Made by a program: the position numbers and the translations under genes. Below are positions 1,735 to 52,500 of a stretch of 64,000 nt of DNA, piece after piece. Positions within the stretch are counted from its first letter, which is position 1. Every line of letters starts with the position of its first letter. The notes beneath the pieces were generated by a model. The model was not told the origin of the DNA, searched no databases, and saw only the letters and a list, made by a program, of their open reading frames with translations. Source of the DNA: Procambarus clarkii (Eukaryota; Arthropoda; Malacostraca; Decapoda; Cambaridae); NCBI RefSeq assembly GCF_040958095.1, contig NC_091173.1:15687530-15751529 (forward strand). Direction: 5' to 3'.

Positions 1735-2530
1735 TTACACATCGTTGGAACATTTGTTATATAATTGTCTCTGAATTCGCGTATACTTTTCGCACTCCAT
1801 CACATAGTGACGTAGGATGTGCGAATAATTTTGCTGACACAGTTTACATTTGGTCAGGTCTACATCAGCAAATAATGAGAATTCCCAGAGATACTTGTAA
1901 CCGACTCCAAGCCGAGCAATAGTAACATCTAGAAGTCTGCTGATTTTATTGGATGAACCATAGATGTGTGGCTCCTCTTGCATGATAGTATGATGATAGA
2001 TGGAATTACTTGTGTCGATTTCACTTTGTCTAAGATCTACAAGATTTTGTTGAAGTTCTTGGTGTACTATTGCTCTCAAACTGCTTATTGACAATCCAAG
2101 GTTATACTCAATTTCTCCTTTAAAGGCAGATTCTTTGGCTAACTCATCAGCTCTATTATGCATTCGGAGGCCAACATGAGATGGAGTCCACATGAAATGG
2201 ACTCTGTTACCATCATTAATAATTGTTGTTGTATTTGTGTCTGGCTTCGGACACGAGAATGTTACAGTTTTGTCTAAAAGAGTTGAGAGCAATTATGGAT
2301 GACAAAGAGTCACTTACAGTTAATATATCAAGTTTAGAGACTTGAACACATTTCAGTGCAAGAAGCAAGGCAGGGTAGAGGCCCAGTTGTTTATATGGAC
2401 TTCCCACTCAAAATATAAGCCATCTCCTATTGTCAGGACAACTGCACTTCCAGCTGCACCCGTGGGGCGGTGTAGGGAACCATCAGTGTATGTAATTTGA
2501 CAGAGAATGCTCTGTGGACAGAGCATCAAT
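1735..2530 (-). pseudogene. Broken non-LTR retrotransposon RNase H and C-terminal region
   Basis: The minus strand encodes an RNase H fold in pieces. ITYTDGSLHRPTG (the catalytic TDGS) is near 2490, then ALKCVQVSKLDILTVSDSLS at 2407-2216 in another frame, then MWTPSHVGLRMHNRADELAK in the 2292-1735 frame. A cysteine motif CKLCQQNYSHILRHYVMEC follows, typical of the C-terminus of Jockey/I-type elements. At least two frameshifts are needed to read it through, so it is dead. Its 3' UTR probably runs to the terminus-like repeats at 1194-1440, about 300 bases downstream. Confidence 0.85.
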
Positions 2531-4655: not shown

Positions 4656-5769
4656 GTAAGTACAGTATACAGAATGTACATAATTTCTGCTTAAAACTAA
4701 CTTTTAAGTCTTGTCCACAATAAAGTAATGGTAATATTAGTGATAAATTTCTGTAAATCTAGAGTAAATCATGTCAAAACAGTCCTATGCTTTCTCTCGA
4801 GTTATTTGATATTCCAAATAATGAAGACTTGCAGAACTAAGGTTTATGAACATGTTGGTTATACATGCCAGTGATGACCGCTGTTCTCTTCAGCCACTAG
4901 ACCTAACTGCAGGAAATAGGAAGCTTCAACAGCCTGTGCTCTGCTCTGCCTAACATTGTATTTTATGCTCTCCTTGTCCAACCTTGGCTTAATAAGTTGA
5001 CCAAGCCACACACTAGAAAGTGAAGGGACGACAACATTTCGATCCGTCCTAGACCATTCTCAAGTCGACACAATCGACTTTAGAATGGTCCAGGATGGAC
5101 CGAAACGTCGTTGTCCCTTCACTTTCTAGTGTGTGGTTAGGTCAACATAGTCTTTCAGCCACGTTATTGTGACTCCTCGTCTGCATTTGGCTTAATATGG
5201 TTTATTAGCCCAGAAAATGTTTTAGTATACCGTACATTAACATGATCAAATTTGTATCGCAACTGCTTACCTTGACTGTTGTTTAGGTATACAGTACTAA
5301 AAAAAAAAAAAGATCTCTCCCTGATCGTACAGTTCTAGTTGTCTTGCACCCATATTGCTTTATACCGAGATCCTTTATTATAGCACAGCGTTGATCTGTA
5401 TCCAAATAATGCAGTCCCCATGGCACAGTGGTAAGACACATTTCTGACTAGAATTTTTTTATTTCTTTTATCATATAGCTTTAAATGTTAAATTATTGTT
5501 TATAAGTAAAATTTATAGTACTGTATTACTATGATTTATGAAACTAAGTACTTTTGTTACATGTAAAGTTTAAAGATTGAGTACAGTAAAGTTATACATT
5601 ATGTTACCCAGGCTTGGTTGTGTGGCTTTGTAATATTCTGTCAAGTATAATGTATGGCATTAATTTTTTTTAATTGACAATTCTAGAAATACAATGAGAC
5701 CAAAATGATAAATTACATTTAAAATTTAATACTCTAATTTAAATTCAATACTGTATTTGTACATTGCAG
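4656..5769. other. Putative COG7 intron 1 contents
   Basis: Contains the fold-back element (4997-5145), an A-run at about 5300-5312 and a SINE head fragment (5409-5448: GCAGTCCCCATGGCACAGTG, box A-like, truncated). The rest is AT-rich with no coding signal. Confidence 0.5.
4997..5145. mobile_element. Fold-back (hairpin) element, copy 1
   Basis: Arms 4997-5068 and 5074-5145 are nearly perfect inverted repeats around a 5-base loop. Landmarks are CCACACACTAGAAAGTGAAG, ACCATTCTCAAGTCGA and GGACCGAAACGTCGTTGTCC. The following TCAGCCACGTTATTGTGACT also recurs after copy 2 at 51899-52043. A third, half copy is at 63661-63735. Confidence 0.85.
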
Positions 5770-5859: not shown

Positions 5860-8800
5860 GTGAGTGAGATAGTGTTTTATATATTTAAGAGGTGGATTAT
5901 TATTTTTCTCTCTTGACTTCATACTCTTAATTATACACTATGCACATGAGAAATACTGTACTTTGCTTAAATTTACTGAAATACAGTACTGTACTGTAAT
6001 TGTTTTGTGTAGGAAAATTTTAATTTCATTGATTCTCTTAGTGTCGTCGTAGTGTTGCAGTTACTGAAATTATAATAATAAAAATAAGAATAATTCATTG
6101 TCTAGGGATTGGCAGCTAAAATGTATTTATACATGTTTAGCTTATATCACAGCCCCCTTTTTTTCCCCCAAGGTTGAATTACCGATAAATTACAGGCTGG
6201 GGACGTGAGAAATACGCTGGATGTGGTTACATTTTGTTTATATGTGCTGACATGTTCATTTGGTAGTTGTCTATTATAGATTTAAATTAAAATTTTGCTA
6301 GGTGAAATTAGGCAATAGGGTGTGGCTAATGTATCCTGGAAGCATCTCCAGTTGCAATGAATCCTCTCTTTCTGCAATAAATTGGGGTTGGTCCCATATA
6401 CTGTAGTTCATTGAATCAAAATTGTACTGTATATACAGTACATTTATAATGATCTTTATCATAGGGTTCAATAGTATTGTCTGTAGGAGGAACTTTACAA
6501 CTTTAACAATTGTTGAAAATAAAAAAAAATATACAGTATATATTTTTCAGCAATATGCATCGTCCCTGGTGATGCGACTGCAGTTAGCCATACAGGAAGT
6601 GAATAATGCTCTGGAGGACACAAGCCAACAGGTATATGTTTTGTGCCTATTTTTGTGCATGTATTGTTTCAGAATTTGTATATTTTTGTTAATATGATGG
6701 AAGGGAAAAGGAGAAGAGTGGTTTGATAACCCTGAACAGTGGCTTTCCTGAAATAATCCTGGATCAATCCACATCCAGAGAGTGTAGGCATGAATTTATG
6801 TACATAATTATATATATGTACTCTTTAGACATGCTTGCAGGGTTCAGCATTAGCCCAGTTACCCTGGGCTAATGCTTTCATGCCCCTGATTAGGTAATGC
6901 AGTTACTTTGACCTTGTATTTTTCATCATACTTCCTTTTGAAGATGCTAAATTGAGCTTGTTATAACATATGTTTTGTGGCTCATTCTACTTGGTCTCAA
7001 CTTTTGCACAAAAGGTGTTTCCCGGCTTCCTCTAGCTCATCTGCACCTTCTAGCTTCCACCCATGTCTATGGTCCTATTGTTTCACATTGCAGACATTGC
7101 ATCATCGTTGTTTATCAATTCCCCATAATATTTTTTATCTCCATATATAAATATTTTGTTATTGTATTATCAAATATAACATGTGTTTGTTTTATTTCTG
7201 AGATTTGGTAATTAAATACATCTGAAGACATTAAATTTATTTTCAGGTGGTGGCCAGCTTACCACGAGTACTCAGAGATATTGAATCACTGGGACATGAA
7301 GTTGCTGTTCTCAAGAATCAGATGAACAGTGTTAGGCTAGACATTGAAAAGGTAATATTTTTCAAAATCTAGCTATTATAACTAATGTACTGTATCTAGT
7401 TTAATGTAACTGCTGTGCATTGAAATCGATTTGTTAAAACTACCACTGTTGCAAATATTAATGACATAAGGTGCAACAGCAAATTTTTATTGAATTTAAA
7501 CTTGTGGAAGTTGTGACTTGGCCCACAAAACTGTCCAGCTTCTGAAGGGCTACTAAAAGAAACATGGCAGCTAGAGGAGAGAATTATCTAATAAAGGTTA
7601 GTTAAACTGTGTGGCATTCAACAGGAAGGCTTTGCATTTGACTGAGGGAGCCACATGGTGGCAGCATGCAGGTTCAGCCTTGTGTTAATAGGTTCACCCC
7701 CGAGACATTGAACATGTCTGGTTATTCCTGATCCCCTCTTCTGCCATCTCCACCCACATGTAAATTCTGACCACATTACTCTGTTTACTGCTTTGTTCTC
7801 ATTAAAAATAATATTATAGGCCTGATTTGAATAATCTGGATTTACGTGTAATTTCCCTGTTTTAGCTATTACCTTTTAAAATTTTCTACATTTTCATGTT
7901 GGCAAACCATAAAATTTGTTTCAAATACAGTATGCTGAATAGATTTCCTATGACCAATAACTGATACTAATAATATTGTGCTCATCTATGAACATATTTT
8001 TCTGATAACGGAGGAATAAGACACCGACAGCATTGGGACCTATTTATTTAATTTTTTAGTAGTAACAAAATAATTAAATTTTTTCAGACCATGTTAATGA
8101 ACAGGTAACTTGTATAATTTTACAACAGCATAAATACATGTATAACTTGGCTACAATGACTTAATAACATTAATATATATGCTTATATCCGGTAACTAAA
8201 TAGAACATGGTCTGAAGAACGCGGAATCCTTATTAACTATTGGTACAAGTAAGGCAAACGTTTAACATAATTTTTTAAGTAGAATCGGGGCTTAAAGAGT
8301 AGCATATAGTGGCCTAACACATGACATAAATAATGTGGCAAATCCCAGACATAATGTGAAATGGTAAATTACTAGTAGCTGTAGAATACACCTATAGGAC
8401 AAATTTAACAATACTCTTACAAGTGAGAGTAAGTAGCTGCGGACAGCGTAATACTTAGGGGCCGGCGCTGCACCCCCCTGTTGACCACCAATAAAGGACA
8501 AAGACATAGTACTGTGCGTAGGGTTATATTGCCGCTGAACATTGGAAGGGGAGGAGGGTGGGAAAATTTTTTCTAAGACTTGTGAAGCGGAGCGAGGCTG
8601 GAACAAGAAAGAACGCATGACCCCTCCTCTGTGCTATATATATAGGCCCCCCCGCGGCGCTCCGCGCGCTGCGGATCGCGCTGTGCAACTGTCTTCTCCT
8701 CCATCAGAAATTCCTCCGCATTCCTACATAATGCAGCGGTTATTTTCTGATAACGGAGGAATAAGACACCGACAGCATTGGGACCTATTTATTTAATTTT

Positions 8801-11800
8801 TTAGTAGTAACAAAATAATTAAATTTTTTCAGACCATGTTAATGAACAGGTAACTTGTATAATTTTACAACAGCATAAATACATGTATAACTTGGCTACA
8901 ATGACTTAATAACATTAATATATATGCTTATATCCGGTAACTAAATAGAACATGGTCTGAAGAACGCGGAATCCTTATTAACTATTGGTACAAGTAAGGC
9001 AAACGTTTAACATAATTTTTTAAGTAGAATCGGGGCTTAAAGAGTAGCATATAGTGGCCTAACACATGACATAAATAATGTGGCAAATCCCAGACATAAT
9101 GTGAAATGGTAAATTACTAGTAGCTGTAGAATACACCTATAGGACAAATTTAACAATACTCTTACAAGTGAGAGTAAGTAGCTGCGGACAGCGTAATACT
9201 TAGGGGCCGGCGCTGCACCCCCACTCGCAGAGCCAGCTGGCCGGACCCCCCCCCCCCCGAAGGGCGAGTGCCAGCTGTCCGCGGAATTGGTTTGGATTGA
9301 TGTCCAAAAAGCTTGGGAAGGATGATGTGAGGAAAAAAGATGGGGCGATGAAATTCTTGGAAGAGGATTTGGATGTGGAGAGAGGAGGCTTGAAATTTCG
9401 GTGGCCCGTCCACCTTGGATTGGAGATGTTTTTTTTTTTTTTTTTTTTCAGCAAAGCCTGTAGCTTAAGTTCTTCTTGGGCGGCAGGAGGCTAGTGGTGG
9501 GGCAGGGTGATGTCGTCCTGGTTCACTTGAGGTGGTCTGTCTGGCTTGGAGGAGGCGTCGTCCTTATTGAGGTGGTGAGAGGAAAGTTCACTGTTGCTTG
9601 TTGTTATCTTGACCACGAGGTATTCGCATGTACTTCCCAAATGACATCGGCGTTATTGGTGTTCCTGTCGGGTCTTCATCTTCTTCCAGGAAGGTCACTT
9701 GTTCCCTCTTGAAGTCGTATTTAGGGTCGACGTATTCACTCTCCAGAGCGCAGAGGTCAACATAATGTTCCACGGTCTCGTGGTGGACAAACACAGGGTA
9801 AGGAAAGCAGGTCTTGAGCTGGTTGATGATCCTGTTGCATTCTAAGGCAATGACCATTCTTGTGCTTCGATTGCTGTTGAAAGTGCCATCGTGAATGAGG
9901 TAAATCCATAGTAGGGCTTTTTCTTGCTTGATTTGCTTGGGTTTAGGTCGAAGTCTGGGGCCTCATATGTGACGGTCTCAGCCGAGGTAGATGGAAACAA
10001 TGGTGATCCTAGGAACTTGGTTGGTTGGCCTGGTGTGGACGTCTGTGTAGCAGGAGCAGAAGCGTTGGGAAGCACTGGCAATAATGTAGCTTGGATATCG
10101 AAGCTTGCCGGCTGATTGTTTGTTGGGTTGGCAGTCACTGTTTATTTATTTCATCTAGTCGTACGTGGCAGTCCATGGAGACGGTGATGTGATCTCCGCA
10201 ATTGAGGCACCGTTTGTTGGGTGTCCTTGACTGTAGCAGCAGTCAGAGCCGTGTTTTCTGGTGTTGATGGTACCAGGATCCTGGGTGGCGGTGTAGACAC
10301 TCGTGTGGCTGACGAATATGTTTCGTTCAGCCAAGTAGCGACGGTTAGGAGTGATGATCAGGTTGTAGTTTCGTAGGGCGTCCTGGTGTTCTGGTGCAAA
10401 CAGTTGCTCCAGAGCTTGCGCGCTTGAATAGAGGAGTACAGCGCCGTCAGCATCGTCACGGATGTCCAACGGGGCTGCATTCGTGATGTCGACGATTTTC
10501 TTTAGAAATTGGGGTCCGGTGTAGTATGTTTCTTCACGAAACCGGACCTTTATGCGGTAAATCATGGCTCTAATCGTTGCTGCCCAATGTTTACCCACCC
10601 GGCAGTGCTGGGTGCAGAGAGCCTGATCTAGGGTTTCGGTCGTCTGCTTTATTTTGTTTATTTTCGTGCCTTTTATCTGGCCGCTGAATGTTTTCAATGT
10701 GGAAGCGTGATGACATCTTGCCTGACATATGAGTGAAAAACGTCACGCCTCCATCGTCCGACGGCCTTAATTGTTTCCTGCACATGCCCGTTAATGTGAC
10801 AGCTGCATGGCCCGTCCAATCCGTAAAGAATGTGGGGCGTAGTCATTGTGAGGGCGCAGGCCACGTAAGGGGCATCAGCGTGTAGGGCGTTGACTTCTCA
10901 TCTGACGTTGGGGGCCGTGCCACCAGGAATGGCGTAGCCGAAAGTTCTGCGTCGCGGGGTATCATGGAGTTTTTCCTTGTCTGCGTCCACGTCCGTGCCC
11001 GTACACCCGTTACCTCTGCCATTAAAAAAAAACAGTCAGGAATTTCCAGTACTGAAAAAAGGTACAGAGTCGGGCGTACATGGCTGGTAAATGCTGCTAG
11101 GTAAGCAGCATCCTGGAAGTGACCAATGTAGCCCCGTCTGGTGCATGTGTATACAATGCGGGCGTCTTGATGTCTGCGTGTTGTGGGCGTATTACCTCGT
11201 GCATGCCTCGCGTGCTATGCCCCGCCACGCCAGGACATCCTCGTGTCGCCGTTATCGCTGTATCCCGCCCTTGCAGAGACTAGCCCAGTGAGGTTGACCC
11301 CAGGGCGGGTGAGTAGGACCTGCGTGTGCCAATCCGTGCCGTCCGTCGGGAGTGTTCATCGTGCGCGATCCTATGTTCTCCGTCCATGAGGTATTCCCCG
11401 ATGGTCTGTAGTCGATGATTGATTGATGAAGATTAAGCCACCCAAGAGGTGGCACGGGCATGAATAGCCCGTAAGTGGTGGCCCTTTCGAGCCATTACCA
11501 GTATCAAAAGATGACACTGGAGATCTGTGGAGGCGCAACTGCACCCTGCGTGACGGGAGATGTCTCCCTTGTGAATATAAACATTGGAACGCTGAACATT
11601 GGAAGGGGAGGAGGGTGGGAAAATTTTTTCTAAGACTTGTGAAGCGGAGCGAGGCTGGAACAAGAAAGAACGCATGACCCCTCCTCTGTGCTATATATAT
11701 AGGCCCCCCCGCGGCGCTCCGCGCGCTGCGGATCGCGCTGTGCAACTGTCTTCTCCTCCATCAGAAATTCCTCCGCATTCCTACATAATGCAGCGGTTAT

Positions 11801-14800
11801 TAACAGAATCTAAGCAGCATCAAAAGAAAATATGGTCTCTTAACCCTTTTCATAATAGCAGTTTTGATATCAGTACTAATGAACTGTCTTCCACAGAGTG
11901 ATAGTGTTAAAAAAAAAAAGAGGAAAATATGTTGGAAATTACTTAATAATTTGGGTTTTGCTGCAACTTGCTCCATAATCTGGATTTTTTACATAAATAG
12001 TTTTTGAGAAAAGAGCTAGTGGGTGAATTTGGTCACATGTTTAGACAAAGCAGTTATATGAATGATCGGTTTGTGAAAGGTGCACTGCATTGCATTACCC
12101 ATTTTCTTTTGGATATCAGTGGTTCAGTCCAGTATATAGCAGCTGAATTAAATAATTATTATAATAATAATTCATTATGTAGTGGCACAGGCAGCCAGAG
12201 TGTATTCATACACGTTAGACTTATATCGAGCCTCCCCCCCCCCCCCATGTCGAATTATTGACTCCGTCCAAGATACAACCCCACAAGAAGCTGACTAACT
12301 CCTGGGTACCTATATACTGCTAGGAGAAAAGAGGTATTAGGTGGTAGGAAATACACCCAACTATTTCTGACCTGCCCGAGGTACAAACCTGGAATTCTCG
12401 ATTGTGCATTGGACAAGGAAATATTATCCATCTTGGAAGTGAAAGTTCTATAAAGTGAAGAACAAGAATGGCTTGGCATTTAAATGGTGATGGTGGAAAA
12501 TTACTTAAGAGGATCAATATGGAAACAAGGAAGACTGGAGTATTAAAGCAGTGGTTGGCACGGTCGAGTCGCAGCTGAAAGGTCCTTGGTTTGATTTCTA
12601 TATTAGGAAAAAAAGTGATTGGGCAATGTTTCCTTTCATGTGATGGCTTTGTTCAGCTAGGAATAAATAAGTGTCCTGGAGTTAGGCAGCTATTGTAGGC
12701 TACATCTTGGGAAGGTCAGAAAGTGCCTCAGATCCCTCAATAAACATAAAGGCTTCTGGTTCCTCGACTGTGGGAAACTACAAACTGAATTCATATCAAA
12801 ATACTGTACAGTACTCTCTGAAAACATGACATTTGAACATATATATAAACTAATAGAGTAAACGGGGGAAAAATAGTTTTAATACAATTTGATATGGCTG
12901 TATTGTACTGTATTGTAACTATGGCAGTGCTTCTATTAACCATCAACAAAGTTTAAAAATAATGTACTGTAACTGCTTTGATAAATTTCCTATGTTTGTA
13001 ATTACAGTACTATGTTATTTTTTAAATTTTGCAAGTCTTCACCGTGTTCCATGCCTATTATTTTCTCACATACTATAACATAAGGAAAGTAGAGTAATGG
13101 ATATTTAGCACACCACTCCACATCACTTCATAGATACCTTCAGTTGTCTTGGTGTCTGTAATCAGTGTTTGTTCCAAGATGATTAACTGTTCATTATAAT
13201 GAAAATGTCATGCTGTTAAGATCATAAGCAAAGTAGTAGTACTTATTCCAGTGGGAATAAGTTGGTATATTTATTACATACTGGCACATGGTATTTATTT
13301 TACAGTTATCAAGTATTAAAATGGTGTTAAGAAACGTGTACACTGATCAACCAGTACAAAAGTTTTCCAATATTTCATGTTACAACACTTGTGGTTCACT
13401 TCCATCTTTTCAGGAATGAGTATCTACTTATGCTATGTTCTTAGTTTATTCAATTTTCCTGCATAATTTTATATTGTGATTGTAATGATCATTTGCTTAT
13501 TTCAGGTAGAACACAATACGGCAGCTAGCATGCAGACATTAGTTAAGTTAGACTCGCTGAAGGGTCGCTTGGTGGCATCTTCTCAAGCACTTAGAGAAGC
13601 AGACAACTGGACCACTCTTTCTACAGATATTGAGGAGGTATGAAGCAAAAAATTTGCTTACCATTATGTTCCTAGTTTATGAGGAAGTCAATTCATGGAT
13701 ATCTTCACTGGAGTGGACAGATCAGCATGCCATGAGTGCATATTTATATAATCAACTGGCTATTTTACTCCAAAATAATTTGACTATTCTCATTTAGTAT
13801 TTTTCTGGGGGGAGCCCCTTCAGCTCCCCGGAGCTTACTAGACTGATATGCTAATGTCAGACTTTGGCATCAGTCATGTGTATGGAGTTCTATGGGCCTA
13901 CCGGGGACCACGAGCCAGAACCTGGCCCCCCTCAGAATAGGCAAGGGGAGCAATGGCCTATAGAAATCCCCGTGTGGTTAGAAGCATTCTATGTCTGCCA
14001 TCGACCCGGCTCCCCCTTTCCCCTCCTGGGGAGGGGGGGAGCTGCGCAGACAGCCATGCGGCAACGTGTGATGTCATGATCGTTTGCTCGTTTCTTTTAG
14101 GGGAGTTCTATCCACTTGTTTGGCTTGTGGTAGCAATTTTCACTAGAATAGGGGTTTGTTTTAGGATGTGGGGGGGGGGGGGGAGATGTTACTGTTTGGA
14201 AGGGGAGTCCACTTCCATTATAACATCAGGCAATGATGACATTTCTGGGGTACACTCTCTCTTATACAATATTTTGCAGGCATACCACTAGGACCTGGTT
14301 GTGACTCACTACTTGTCTTACTAAGAATATATCTATAGATACTTGCTTTTTCTCTATGTTTTAACATTTGTCTGTAGTCAGACCTCACATTATCTCACTA
14401 TGAATGATCTTTTGTTTTTCTTCTATCATCATACTCACATTTGTTTTCTTAGGTTGAACCTTACCACTGACTTTCTTGGGATTTATGGCATGATATATAA
14501 TACTTTTATGTTCAGAAACCGAAAAAACAGAAAAACAACGAAATTCATTACAAAGAATTCAAGCACGATTGTCACTAAGCGGGAGACATTGGTAAACTGA
14601 AGTTCACCTCGCCCTTGCCACCAGGAATCACACACTCGGGTGACCCATACGTGTACAGTATCAACAAAACTCCCCAAGTGAGGCAAAACTCGCAAACGAA
14701 GTCAAATTTTTAGAAGAAATTGAGCTCGTAAACAGAAAAATTTGTAAAGTGGGGCATTTGTAAACACAGAATCCACTGTACTATTAATCCTCTAAAATAA

Positions 14801-17800: not shown

Positions 17801-20800
17801 TGACGACTCCTCATTCTACAAAGGTAGGAAATATGGCAATAATGATGCATGGATTAATTATGTTATGTTATGTTAATCCATTAATGCATGGATTAAATTA
17901 ACTATGTTCAGTAATTCTGCTAGTAAAGAAATACTGTACCTGTATACATGTGCAGTAGGTGCCATTTTTTATCTATAGATAATTCATTTTTAATTGTATG
18001 TGTGAAATTGTGTGCGTGCATGTGTGAGATTGCATATGTGCACTGGCGGGTGCACATGTACACACACGTGACATTTATTTTTAGTAAAATATAAATACAG
18101 TGGTAGCTTCATTTACAAATTTAATCTGTTCCCAGAGAAGGGTCGTAACTCGAAACTAATTTTCCCATAAGAAATAATGTAAAGTGAATTAATCTCTTCC
18201 ACACTCCCCAAAACATTAACTTCAAAATACTTTTCATACATAACACACACACACACACACACATTTTGTACTATAGTATGTACAAGTTATAGCTTACCTT
18301 TATTGATGACTCTTGTTGGTGTATGGAAGACGGTGAAGAAGAAGGGAGGAGGAGAGGTGTTGCTGTTTGGATGGGAGTTTCCTTACATTATAACATCAGG
18401 CAGTTTAGATGAGATACTATTTATTCCGAGAAACTTTCTATTGTATATACGGGAAGAATGCGCAGAAAATGTTAGATATTGTGGAAATGTGACGAGAAGG
18501 TGTGTGCACAGGTGCGGTGGTGTGGCCAAGTGTTTACGGGATCGGATGCCAATCTCTTGCTCTCCCAACTAGTGGCATCAACCCTTACTTCACTCGACCC
18601 ACCTGTCTGTCAGGTGATTGCTGCAGCTACCAAGCAGCAAGAGGAACCACTTACTTTCCTAATATCTGTAAAAATTGCAGGGGATCAGTTTTTAAAAGAT
18701 ATTGAATCAACTCTTGGAACAGCAAAACCAGGTTGGTAAAAAAAATAAATTACTATTTGCTGAAGTAAATTGATTTATGGTAGTCCTTTGTATTCATTAA
18801 TGTTAGATAAAGTGAAATGGTAAAGAGATTGTGGAAATATTGCAGTGTAAGTCATATTCATTTTGCAGCTGAAAATGTTTATAAAGTAATACATATTTGT
18901 CGTTTCCATATAATTAGCCACTTTATTTTCTATATGAATTGTTTACTAGGTCACATCCAATATTGCTTTTGCAAGGCTCCAACTATTTCTTGTAATGTTG
19001 AGTCCATCTACAAAATTCATCACAAACATGATTGGAGCCATATTAAGAGTTACCATTCATACCTTACTATTTCTGATGTCTGTGGGCTGATTTCAGTGAA
19101 ATGTTCATTTAAAGCTGTCATATGAAAGAGAGTGACCAAGAGGATCCATCTGTGAAGAGATTTAACTACATCTATTATATTTCCCATGCCCTAGCCTTGA
19201 AAATTCATTTTCAGTGGAAAATGGACCCATATTAGTTAACAAAAACTGGGAAATCTCAAAATTAAAATGATCCACAGAACTTGGTTTTTAAATATTCTCA
19301 ATAGTTTTCCCAAGGCTCCAACTATTTTTGTAATATTGTGCCCATCTACAAAAAAACAGATATGCTAGCCATTCAAAAGGCTTTGGAACATGCTCTTGCT
19401 GAACACCGGCAACATGTTATCATACATACAGATTCGAGAACCGCCATTGAAACCTTGCAACAAGAACACATATGTGATAACATACATCTGATCACAAATG
19501 TCATATCATTAATGCAAACATTCAAACGACAAGGCCGACAGGTACTTATCAACTGGGTGCCAAGTCATGTGGGAATAATAGGAAATGACATTGCAGACAA
19601 AGCTGCAAAACTTGCAACTAAGAGAAGAAATGTAGACATTTACATACCACAGAGTCTATCACAGATTAAGAAAGTAATTAGAAACAGAGCAATGCAAAAG
19701 ATGTACAGTGACCACAACACAGCAGTTGCAACTTCAGGATCTGCGGGTTGGTACGAGAATTAAACCAACTACGAACCACTTAGTTTGATGAAAGAGAGCA
19801 GTAGAGCAACATAAGTACACTTACATCGCGTCAGGCTTGGATACCCATGTACATGGGAAATAGGCTTACAGGTTCCAGAAGATGAGAGGAAATGTCAGCA
19901 CTGTGGAGAAATGCCCGACAGACCGCTGGAACATTATCTAACACAGTGCACAGTTACAAACCCATTAAGATTTCAACTTAGATTCAACAGAGCAGAAGTT
20001 GTTAAACACACATGGCAAAATCTTACTGAAGCGACCATACGAGTCATAAATACTCATACTCCACCCAAGTAAAACAGAAACAAGCAACACTTAGTGGGCC
20101 AGCCAGAGGCTTAGGGCCCGTGCAGGAATATCCCTGAAAAAAAAAATAAAAATGTGATTGGAGTCATATTTCAAAACGCCCAATGCAAAATTAGCTAAAT
20201 CGAGGTTTATTGAATCAAGGTTCCACTGTAATAAGAACAAATTTGAATCCATGTTAATTTTGCTTTTAATCCATAAGACATGAATTACCTTGATAAATGT
20301 CTGAAACCTCACTTCCTCCTTCCCCTCTAATGTCTTTTTATTAACATGTGAAGATAAATGAAATATCCAAGAGGATACATCATTTGACTTCTCTCTCATT
20401 ATGAATGTTATACAGGGCAGGAAGCATACTTCCAGTCTGAGAGGATAGCCGTGCAAGCAGTGTACAGTTCCCTGCAAGATCAGATTAGCAAATACCAGGA
20501 GTATGAGGAGGCACTGATGCTTTCTCATCTCATATCTGCTGGTAAATGCTAAAATGTCTGTTTTGTATTTAGTTTCTCTCTAAAACTGAAAAATGAATGT
20601 TGCAATTTATTTAAGATGAGTGTTCACTGTTACATGGTTATACTGTATGATATATGCTGTCTGCAATAAATACAAAAAAATATTTTCTTTGGTAGCCACT
20701 CTTTCATTTCAATAAGTATATTTTTGAGTGCTTGACATTAAGGTAGCTACCCCTTGGGCTATCACTGCCTCTGTGAGGTCATCTACAGTGCCTGGGAGCA

Positions 20801-49500: not shown

Positions 49501-52500
49501 AACCGGGTGTGGCCAATAGGTAGCCCGTTATCACAAGACAACCTCAGGCCGGGCTCGGGGAGTAGAACTCCCAGAATCCTCTCTAGGTATGCTCCAGGTA
49601 AGCCCTGCCACCCAGTCTATGGAAGCCCTCTTTCTGATATCTTGTATTTTAGGCCAGTGTGTCAGACTTTGTCAAAACCTTTTGATACATTTCTGAGCAG
49701 CAAATTACACTGCCAGAAACTTAGCCACCCATGCACTTTTGGTTACCCACCTGCCATCCACAATTGCCCTTCTGTGACTACCCAAAAAACAGCATGTACA
49801 GGCTGTATTGTACAGTGTATTTCTCTGCTATAATATTTAACTTTTTTCTTTTGGTGGCCGAGGTATCATGCCTGGGGTGGACTGATCCTTATCTTGTCAA
49901 CCTGCCCAGTCAAATATTTTCCCTTATGTGATTCTACCTCTTGCTACTCAAAATATTTTCTTTCCTAAATTTTTTGTTTTAAAAGAAACATAAGTCTTGT
50001 TTTTGCTAAGATAGTCTGGTAGCAGCAGCAATTGATGTGGAGGTGTTAAGAGGAAGCAAGTTATGCAATCATTAAAGCTACGAATGATTCAACTTTTGTG
50101 AAAAATAGTCATTCACTTTGCTACATTCCTGGTAAGAAGTTCAGTAAGTCGAAAGTTTTGGTAACTGGAATGGGGGCAAGCCCCATTTGATTCTGATTAT
50201 CAAGCATAGACAATATTTTATTTTCCAAGTACTGTACATCTTCCCTAAACTGTCTTAGGCATAGATCAAAACAAAGTTTGAAGCGAATGATTGCCCTTGT
50301 CAATACCGTACTTTGGATCATAAGCAATCAAAAAATAACACCGACAATAAATAAATAAATAAAAATTTTTTTTACTTGTTTACAGTGTTATTAAGCCATG
50401 TCGTAGTAACTTCATCCAGGTTTCTGCTGGAAAAAGAGCAGCAGGCAAAGCTAATCGTCACTTTGTCCAATTCATTTACCTACCCTATATAGTGTACTGT
50501 CCATAAGCCAAGTAAATAATATAAATTCAATTCTGTAACTTCTCAGCAACACAGTTTTATTCCCAATCCTATTCTAAGAACATTACAATAAGGTACCAGT
50601 GGATTAGTAGTCATCTGCCAATAAATTACTATGTCCTATTTTCATGCTTTACATGGAAAACTAAAAATAAGATTGAATGTATTTTGTTGTATATCTGAAC
50701 AAAAATGCTTCTCTTACCTATGTTGTTCACGTTCTCGATTATAGCCTCTACCAGAACCTCTGCCACGACCTCTGTAACCTCTGCCACGTCCACCATAGCC
50801 ATCAGCACGTACATCTTGGGGTTGTGGACTAAAACCTGAGATCTTGTGTAGCTGCTGCTGTTGTTGCTGCTGTTGCTGCTGCTGCTGTTGATGCTGATGA
50901 TACTGCGGTGGTGACTGCTGCTGTGGTGAGGCTAATGGTGCCGTTTGTTCTGGTTTATAATTTTCATTATCACCTGCAAAAAATTTAACTAGTTATTTCA
51001 ACTGCCTAATGTGCAATCAAGAAATATATCCCCAGCCAGGATTATGTGGTGTACATTTTCACATGTTCATGAATGGAGACAGACAAGAGGCTATAAATTA
51101 CAAATCAGTGTCCCTTACATGCCTCTTGTGTAAAATGCTAAATACTTACTTTGTACTCTAGAGACTGCATGGTTTTTTGGGAGAGAAAAAAAGGCAAAAA
51201 GGCTTTATGAACCTGATTGACTCTCATTATCACCAAGATAAGGAAGAGAAAAAAGGATACATCGATTTCATGTTCCTAAATTCTCAAAAGCTTATTGACA
51301 CTGTCCCTCCAAAAACAAAGGCTGATCCACAAGTTGGAAAAGGAAGTTGTAGTAAATATGAAGATACTGGACTGGAATAGAGTCCAACTACTCTATTGGT
51401 ATCTGACAAACAAGAAAGACTTCTGTGGTTTAGGAAAGTGTCAAGTGGGGTCCTGCAGAGTTCGGTACTCAGATCACTGTTCCAGCTGTATATAAATGAC
51501 TTCCCAGAAAAAGAATACACAATAATAGGACATGGAGGAAAAAATAAAAAAATAATATAAAAGAGGACTGCACAATACTATAAGAGGACTAGACAAGCTG
51601 TAGGTATAGGCAAATGATAACCAGAGTTTAATCCCGATAATTGAATAGAAATATGGTTTGGTTAAGAAAAATAAAGACCAACAAAGTATTGTGCAATATA
51701 CGAGTGAGGCAGTTACAGCAAAAAATAAAAATAAAATAGAAAAACACTAGGGAGTTGACAAAACTAGCCTTAACACTAGAGGAGCATATGAGCAGAATAA
51801 CATCAGCAGCATATGTGAAACTAGACAAAACAAAAATTGGCATTTGGAAACTTTGGTGAAGAATCCTTCAAAATATTACACATCACATATGATGACAAGA
51901 CCACACACTAGAATGTGAAAGGACAACGACGTTTCGGTCCGTCCTGGACCATTCTCAAGTCGATTGTGATCAAGTCACAATTGACTTGAATGGTCCAGGA
52001 CGGACCGAAACGTCATCGTCCCTTCACATTCTAGTGTGTGGTCTTATCATCATACTTTAGCCACGTTATTGTGACTCATCGCCTGCATACACATCACATA
52101 CTTCTGACCAGTACACAGAATACACAGCTCTAAAACACACTTATGAAGGTAACGTGGTAAACAAGTGGGATGAACATGAGCCAGAAGTGGCAGAAGAACC
52201 ACCACTCACAGGTACAATAATGACAGTACTTGAACATCAAGAGGTATAAATACCCCTCTTACAATAGCAAGAAGACAGGGCTTTATGAGATAGATCTATC
52301 TCACTTCCTTTAATCACAAGTAGTTAAGCACTCCAGACTTGAAATACTTTTCTATCAAATACAAAAATTCCAAATCTGTCAGGTACCCATTTCCAAATTT
52401 TTATCAATTTTATTTAAATCACAACGATAACATTTATCACAAGATTTCCCCTCACAACAAGTGGTGCTATAGAATGTGTTATATGTTTACACTAATATTC

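Follow-up and report, generated by a model that had tools for sequence, protein, structure and literature searches.

Two head-to-tail units with split direct repeats make up a young mobile family without recognisable enzyme genes in Procambarus clarkii

Split direct repeats serve as a sign of PAT and Ngaro elements, and the locus described here raises the question of how far this layout can be trusted to tell the class of a mobile element. The window analysed is a stretch of 64,000 nucleotides from the decapod Procambarus clarkii (contig NC_091173.1, positions 15,687,530 to 15,751,529 of the forward strand). It contains a 3.8-kb element in which two blocks, A (480 bp) and L (212 bp), are each present twice in the order A-55 bp-L/A-2367 bp-L. 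A preliminary description, made from the letters of the window, had taken this element for a new non-autonomous retrotransposon of the PAT/Ngaro type. We found that the element represents a recently moved, young mobile family without recognisable enzyme genes of its own. It cannot be classed as a new PAT/Ngaro retrotransposon, because no enzyme genes of its own were recognised and because its head-to-tail units also occur separately in the genome.

Self-comparison of the window bore out the reported repeat pairs: the two A copies are identical (480/480) at an offset of 745 and the two L copies are identical (212/212) at an offset of 3057 (Table 1). Searches of the whole window gave no third copy of A or L. 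Comparison with other copies placed the true unit ends at TTTCTG (7999 and 8744) and GGTTAT (8743 and 11800), which define a unit U1 (A, 55-bp spacer and L) followed by a unit U2 (A, interior and L). The 2-bp overlap of A and L, noticed earlier as a shared TT, is present in the sequence. Because the inner junction GGTTAT/TTTCTG is an exact head-to-tail join with no base gained or lost, the shared TT is the last base of the first unit and the first base of the second.

The host genome (4.03 Gb) holds many copies of these units. The genome searches scored the best 40 of 1126, 150 of 2236, 40 of 284 and 40 of 247 candidates, so that every count is a minimum and close relatives are over-represented among the loci read. 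A 703-bp query made of A, the spacer and most of L gave at least 61 matches from the best 40 of 1126 candidates, and the 23-base 5' end occurs in 155 copies with at most one mismatch (0 for a reversed-pattern control). Both units begin with TTTCTGATAACGG or a close variant (21 loci) and finish with GGTTAT, and U1 measures about 745 bp. The U1-U2 composite was present at 15 loci read, the window included, with flanks differing between loci. When 20 loci were fetched and mapped, A-spacer-L/A-interior was found at twelve (L009-L020); L026 and L028 have the identical junction, but the second A is interrupted. Extra U1 copies can stand ahead of U2, L020 having two short units and L019 three. Since many loci that differ in their flanks have this layout, neither chance nor some accident at the window site explains it. 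Genome copies showing A and L to be unrelated repeats, which the preliminary description had named as fatal to its claim, were not found.

Both units were also found alone. U1 is alone in five of six loci chosen for having no A hit downstream (L021-L025), the sixth (L027) being rearranged. A search with the gag-like open reading frame (ORF) of the element led to 20 loci, in ten of which (L041-L043, L045-L047, L049-L052) other DNA precedes A and U2 is alone; four of these ten have one common flank, leaving at least 7 sites. An L end precedes A in nine (L033-L038, L040, L044, L048), among which is the window and of which only L048 was not already among the composites counted; A is truncated in L039. 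The A-L-A-L arrangement recurs at 15 loci, but it is not obligatory, given lone U2 in 10/20 of the gag-bearing loci and lone U1 in 5/6 of those chosen for having no A hit downstream. Among the best 100 of the 155 5' ends, all exact, 17 same-strand neighbour pairs lie at 600-900 bp, and all are 742-758 bp apart, the length of U1; one-mismatch partners are missed in this set, and an end without a partner need not belong to a lone unit. Ten further 5' ends without a listed partner, sampled on the downstream side only, comprised six U2, three U1 and one short deletion form.

The U2 units read are 3-10.5 kb long. Five long ones measure 7.1-10.5 kb end to end, and five longer composites reach about 9-12 kb; from coordinates only, C49 carries a U2 of about 13.4 kb and C5 has same-strand 5' ends spaced 14.3 and 15.0 kb. 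The 3.8-kb form of the window is internally deleted. A does not follow any of the nine U2 right ends that were read (window, L009, L010, L014, L017, L019, L020, L055, L056); the right-hand extension of L030, one of four, stopped short of the L end. The idea that U1 arose from U2 by a simple deletion was rejected, since its 85-bp centre is missing from the five long U2 units: the U1 spacer and the first 30 bp of L have no match in them (best E 0.12). In eight other U2 tails (L009, L017, L019, L029, L031, L032, L055, L056) similarity to L starts only at position 31-39. At L058/L059 on C20 a truncated unit with an L end is joined to U2, with minisatellite-rich DNA in place of A; this was considered as a new unit type and rejected, and inspection by eye, to which the check was confined, showed no partner gene in the minisatellite-rich 4.3 kb read upstream. 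Copies on C107 (L023, L027) and C18 (L041, L042, L043, L046) have a common left flank and a differing element, reflecting either segmental duplication or one site used repeatedly.

The repeats of one locus are closely alike. The A copies inside a locus differ by 0-7 substitutions in about 470 bp, and the pairs without any substitution, found in 7 of the 13 composites compared, show that the family is young. In L015 no difference separates the A copies, although the other loci compared are all at least 12 substitutions away. In trees, A blocks of U1 and U2 group by subfamily and not by unit, which rules out U1 and U2 as separate lineages, and the L blocks of one locus share subfamily marks likewise (window, L009, L017 and L019 aligned). 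Copies of each block are homogenised between insertions by some process.

Gag-like debris without reverse transcriptase, RNase H or recombinase had been reported inside the element, and none of nine ORFs of the window element matches a Pfam family above the cut-off (two matches fell below it). The debris is real, but it is foreign: it belongs to a nested gag-only retroposon that is absent from U2 copies of the L017 type (L017, L061, L062, L067), in which the insertion site is uninterrupted. The window carries this site twice, with 11/13 bases alike. Being nested, the gag sequence is uninformative on the class of the element. By eye, an open frame of exactly 586 amino acids was counted in 36 of 150 scored matches to the gag-like ORF (best 150 of 2236), and one such frame, with three zinc knuckles, belongs to a 2.1-kb unit that neighbours a histone H2A frame and has a flanking repeat of about 12 bp, also read by eye. 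Examples of the 2.1-kb retroposon with an intact 586-amino-acid ORF, which has no Pfam match, are L053:1676-3772 and L054:1607-3692; the unit in L054 (C2:62113000-62122900) lies within a long minisatellite, several frames of which are open, and several copies are clustered on contig C345.

The 58 ORFs examined from two long copies (48 of L010/L029, at least 62 amino acids, and, of the 20 L017 ORFs listed, 10 of at least 66 amino acids) gave no Pfam match to reverse transcriptase, RNase H, tyrosine recombinase or Rep/helicase. Four weak single-member matches among them (MerE 0.0014, OB_NTP_bind 0.0039, Herp-Cyclin 0.014 and DUF6787 0.016) are taken as chance. The predicted structure of a 195-amino-acid ORF was uninformative (mean predicted local distance difference test score 38), searches of solved structures led nowhere (two retroviral nucleocapsid chains, E 0.5, over the zinc knuckles), and scans against Rfam and viral contigs gave no lead. 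Long interiors contain tandem arrays: L010 has repeats of 159 and 63 bp, L017 has repeats of 62 and 43 bp. On either side of the lone U1 in L021 there are pieces of the 159-bp repeat (884-1015 and 2092-2231, window orientation), so that this repeat also exists outside the element. Two other readings of the window interior were rejected: 9430-11555 is not one long interspersed element insertion (8-bp duplication, poly(A)), as the interior recurs with the element elsewhere and the real insertion is 9287-10678, and 11425-11555 is not a short interspersed element, being part of the 159-bp repeat, which long copies carry in tandem.

The base before the 5' end is T in 13, G in 4, A in 3 and C in 1 of 21 loci (20 sites, since L023 and L027 share a flank). 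At the 12 sites with both flanks tabulated, GGTTAT is followed by T in ten, A in one and C in one; three additional right ends have T (L055, L057) and A (L056). Comparison of the left and right flanks of these 12 sites, without empty sites, showed no target duplication. The 5' 25 nt and the 3' 60 nt share two asymmetrically placed inverted matches, of 9 and 8 bp, the longer one lying 10 nt from the 5' end and about 25 nt from the 3' end. Among 2000 versions of the 3' stretch obtained by approximate dinucleotide shuffling, 9 equal the first match and 0 equal both; the matches are beyond chance in this approximate test, the windows of which were picked after the matches had been seen. A 5-bp inverted pair, GTTAT/ATAAC, which may be due to chance, was noticed flanking the inner junction.

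These features recall known systems, for which the comparison extends to excerpts of the papers cited. In the excerpt of PMC4067079, Helentron inverted repeats are 12-15 bp long at 2-4 and 38-60 nt from the ends, and tandem Helitron arrays are attributed to bypass of the termination signal; end bypass is also found in that of PMC5148889, and internal tandem arrays are described for HINEs (PMC7492417, PMC4067079). As far as these texts go, our element is like HINE or DINE-1-like non-autonomous Helentrons in being gene-free and in its satellite-like internal arrays and tandem units, and perhaps also in its subterminal inverted repeats and in T-rich insertion without duplication (PMC4067079, PMC7492417), although the 159-bp repeat pieces around the lone U1 of L021 qualify the match in arrays. 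It differs in having shorter inverted repeats placed elsewhere, an insignificant 3' hairpin, interiors of up to about 10 kb and a composite in which two unit types recur in a set order. With Ngaro accompanied by isolated AB repeats (PMC8547959, in excerpt) it has in common the A1-B1-A2-B2 order, a fixed junction and isolated AB units, whereas no reverse transcriptase, RNase H, tyrosine recombinase or own gag was found and lone A-interior-L units and extra AB arrays occur. With PAT, as excerpted from PMC4157794, it shares split direct repeats, but no pol or tyrosine recombinase domain was found and the zinc-knuckle gag is foreign. The ends, T preference, internal arrays and head-to-tail units resemble non-autonomous Helentrons; in its fixed order and homogenised repeat pairs the element is like split-direct-repeat retroelements. 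Split direct repeats and solo copies are known from TOC1 of Chlamydomonas, an element with few genes.

We favour, at a probability of roughly 0.45, a rolling-circle composite over a tyrosine-recombinase element. A gene-free DNA family would be moved in trans, most likely by an enzyme of the Helentron/Helitron2 type. A start at the first 5' end with a stop at the first 3' end would give lone U1, bypass of the first 3' end would give the U1-U2 composite seen in the window, and a start at the second 5' end would give lone U2; circular or concatemeric intermediates could produce extra U1 copies and may allow homogenisation of A and L. One tandem pair, started at either 5' end and stopped or passed at the first 3' end, would thereby account for all four forms. 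Consistent with this are the identical ends of lone U1, lone U2 and composites, the U1 arrays of two and three, the inverted matches near the ends, the T preference after GGTTAT, the lack of a visible target duplication, the tandem arrays and the lack of a Pfam transposition gene in the 58 ORFs. Several observations weigh against it. The inverted repeats of 9 and 8 bp are shorter and at other distances than those in the excerpt of PMC4067079, and the stem of the 3' hairpin is not significant (249/2000 shuffles equal it). At the 12 tabulated sites T is on the left in 7 and on both flanks in 6, and right flanks other than T occur (A in L020 and L056, C in L021). Independent units would need added recombination for their A blocks to group by subfamily, and free side-by-side insertion should have given some U2-U1 order among the nine right ends. 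No autonomous partner is among the copies read, no search aimed at the Rep/helicase family having been completed.

A gene-less split-direct-repeat retroelement (TOC1-, Ngaro- or PAT-like) is a possible though doubtful alternative, in which the minus strand reads L(A1)-interior-A(B1)-L(A2)-55 bp-A(B2). A helper would copy the RNA, the B1/A2 junction would guide circle closure, a tyrosine recombinase would insert the circle, and lone U1 and U2 would come from recombination between repeats. Concerted evolution, with its few substitutions within a locus and the case of L015, is more natural here. The layout and exact junction at 15 loci, the order fixed in the copies read, the uniform spacing of the 17 neighbour pairs and the inverted pair at the junction also speak for it, as do the isolated AB repeats that accompany Ngaro in Cafeteria according to the excerpt of PMC8547959. 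Such an element is opposed by the 58 ORFs without reverse transcriptase, RNase H or recombinase, by the foreign gag, by lone U2 in half of the gag-bearing loci, and by U1 arrays and long interiors with tandem arrays. In the standard model of split direct repeats most of B2 lies inside the RNA, and homogenising a B2 of 480 bp would probably need an extra strand transfer. Of the preliminary classification, a young, non-autonomous element with split-direct-repeat layout at 15 loci is supported, whereas membership of PAT/Ngaro is not. A model with no RNA stage, in which a Crypton-like tyrosine recombinase moves an element as DNA and two copies of it stand head to tail, would suit the exact junction, the lack of a visible target duplication and the lone units with common ends, yet we consider it improbable: the 58 ORFs contain no recombinase, 155 5' ends suggest copying, and no fixed core sequence is present at both flanks. 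An ordinary tandem duplication into which a separate insertion had come had been named as a way in which the earlier reading could fail. This applies in part, since there are two head-to-tail units and U2 holds a nested insertion with an imperfect duplication of about 13 bp. As a chance event local to this site, however, such a duplication is refuted by recurrence of the composite with identical ends at other loci with different flanks, and we give it almost no weight.

Since the layout is here built from two units that are found separately as well and have no recognisable retroelement genes of their own, layout alone is weak evidence of class. It is a speculative and rather unlikely step further that a composite of two gene-free DNA units became one mobile unit with jointly homogenised split direct repeats. 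If true, such a composite would imitate the anatomy of a tyrosine-recombinase retrotransposon without reverse transcription, and would suggest a route to the origin of split-direct-repeat layouts. The family is young, and abundant enough for empty sites, circles and partners to discriminate between rolling-circle and tyrosine-recombinase movement.

Table 1. Features of the composite element, in positions of the window.
Feature	Position	Strand	Remarks
Unit U1 (A, 55 bp, L)	7999..8743	+	Ends TTTCTG...GGTTAT; occurs alone too at L021-L025
Unit U2 (A, interior, L)	8744..11800	+	Internally deleted, 3,057 bp
Block A, copy 1	7998..8477	+	Base 7998 is the outer T and belongs to the flank
Block A, copy 2	8743..9222	+	Base 8743 is part of the L end
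Block L, copy 1	8533..8744	+	
Block L, copy 2	11590..11801	+	
Start of A			TTTCTGATAACGGAGGAAT
End of L			TAATGCAGCGGTTAT
U1-specific spacer	8478..8532	+	
Subterminal inverted repeat, 5' side	8009..8017	+	CGGAGGAAT; repeated at 8754-8762
Subterminal inverted repeat, 3' side	8710..8718	-	CGGAGGAAT; repeated at 11767-11775
Second inverted match	8703-8710		TTTCTGAT; adjoins 3'-side CGGAGGAAT
Possible 3' hairpin	8718..8734	+	GCATT...AATGC, 5-bp stem
TATA-like run inside L	8635..8646	.	TATATAG conserved across 22 aligned L rows
Nested gag-only retroposon	9287..10678	-	Similarity 9287-10642, 88-91%, three pieces; imperfect flanking duplication of about 13 bp
Part of 159-bp repeat	11425..11555	+	Tandem, about 4 copies, in L010

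The TATA-like run in L may act as a promoter. Elsewhere in the window, two related near-palindromic elements lie at 4993-5149 and 51888-52054, with arms of 76 and 67 nt that are 87% and 94% complementary. The ORFs at 1735-2292 (minus strand) and 19305-19763 (plus strand) resemble what we take to be RNase H ends of non-long-terminal-repeat retrotransposons.

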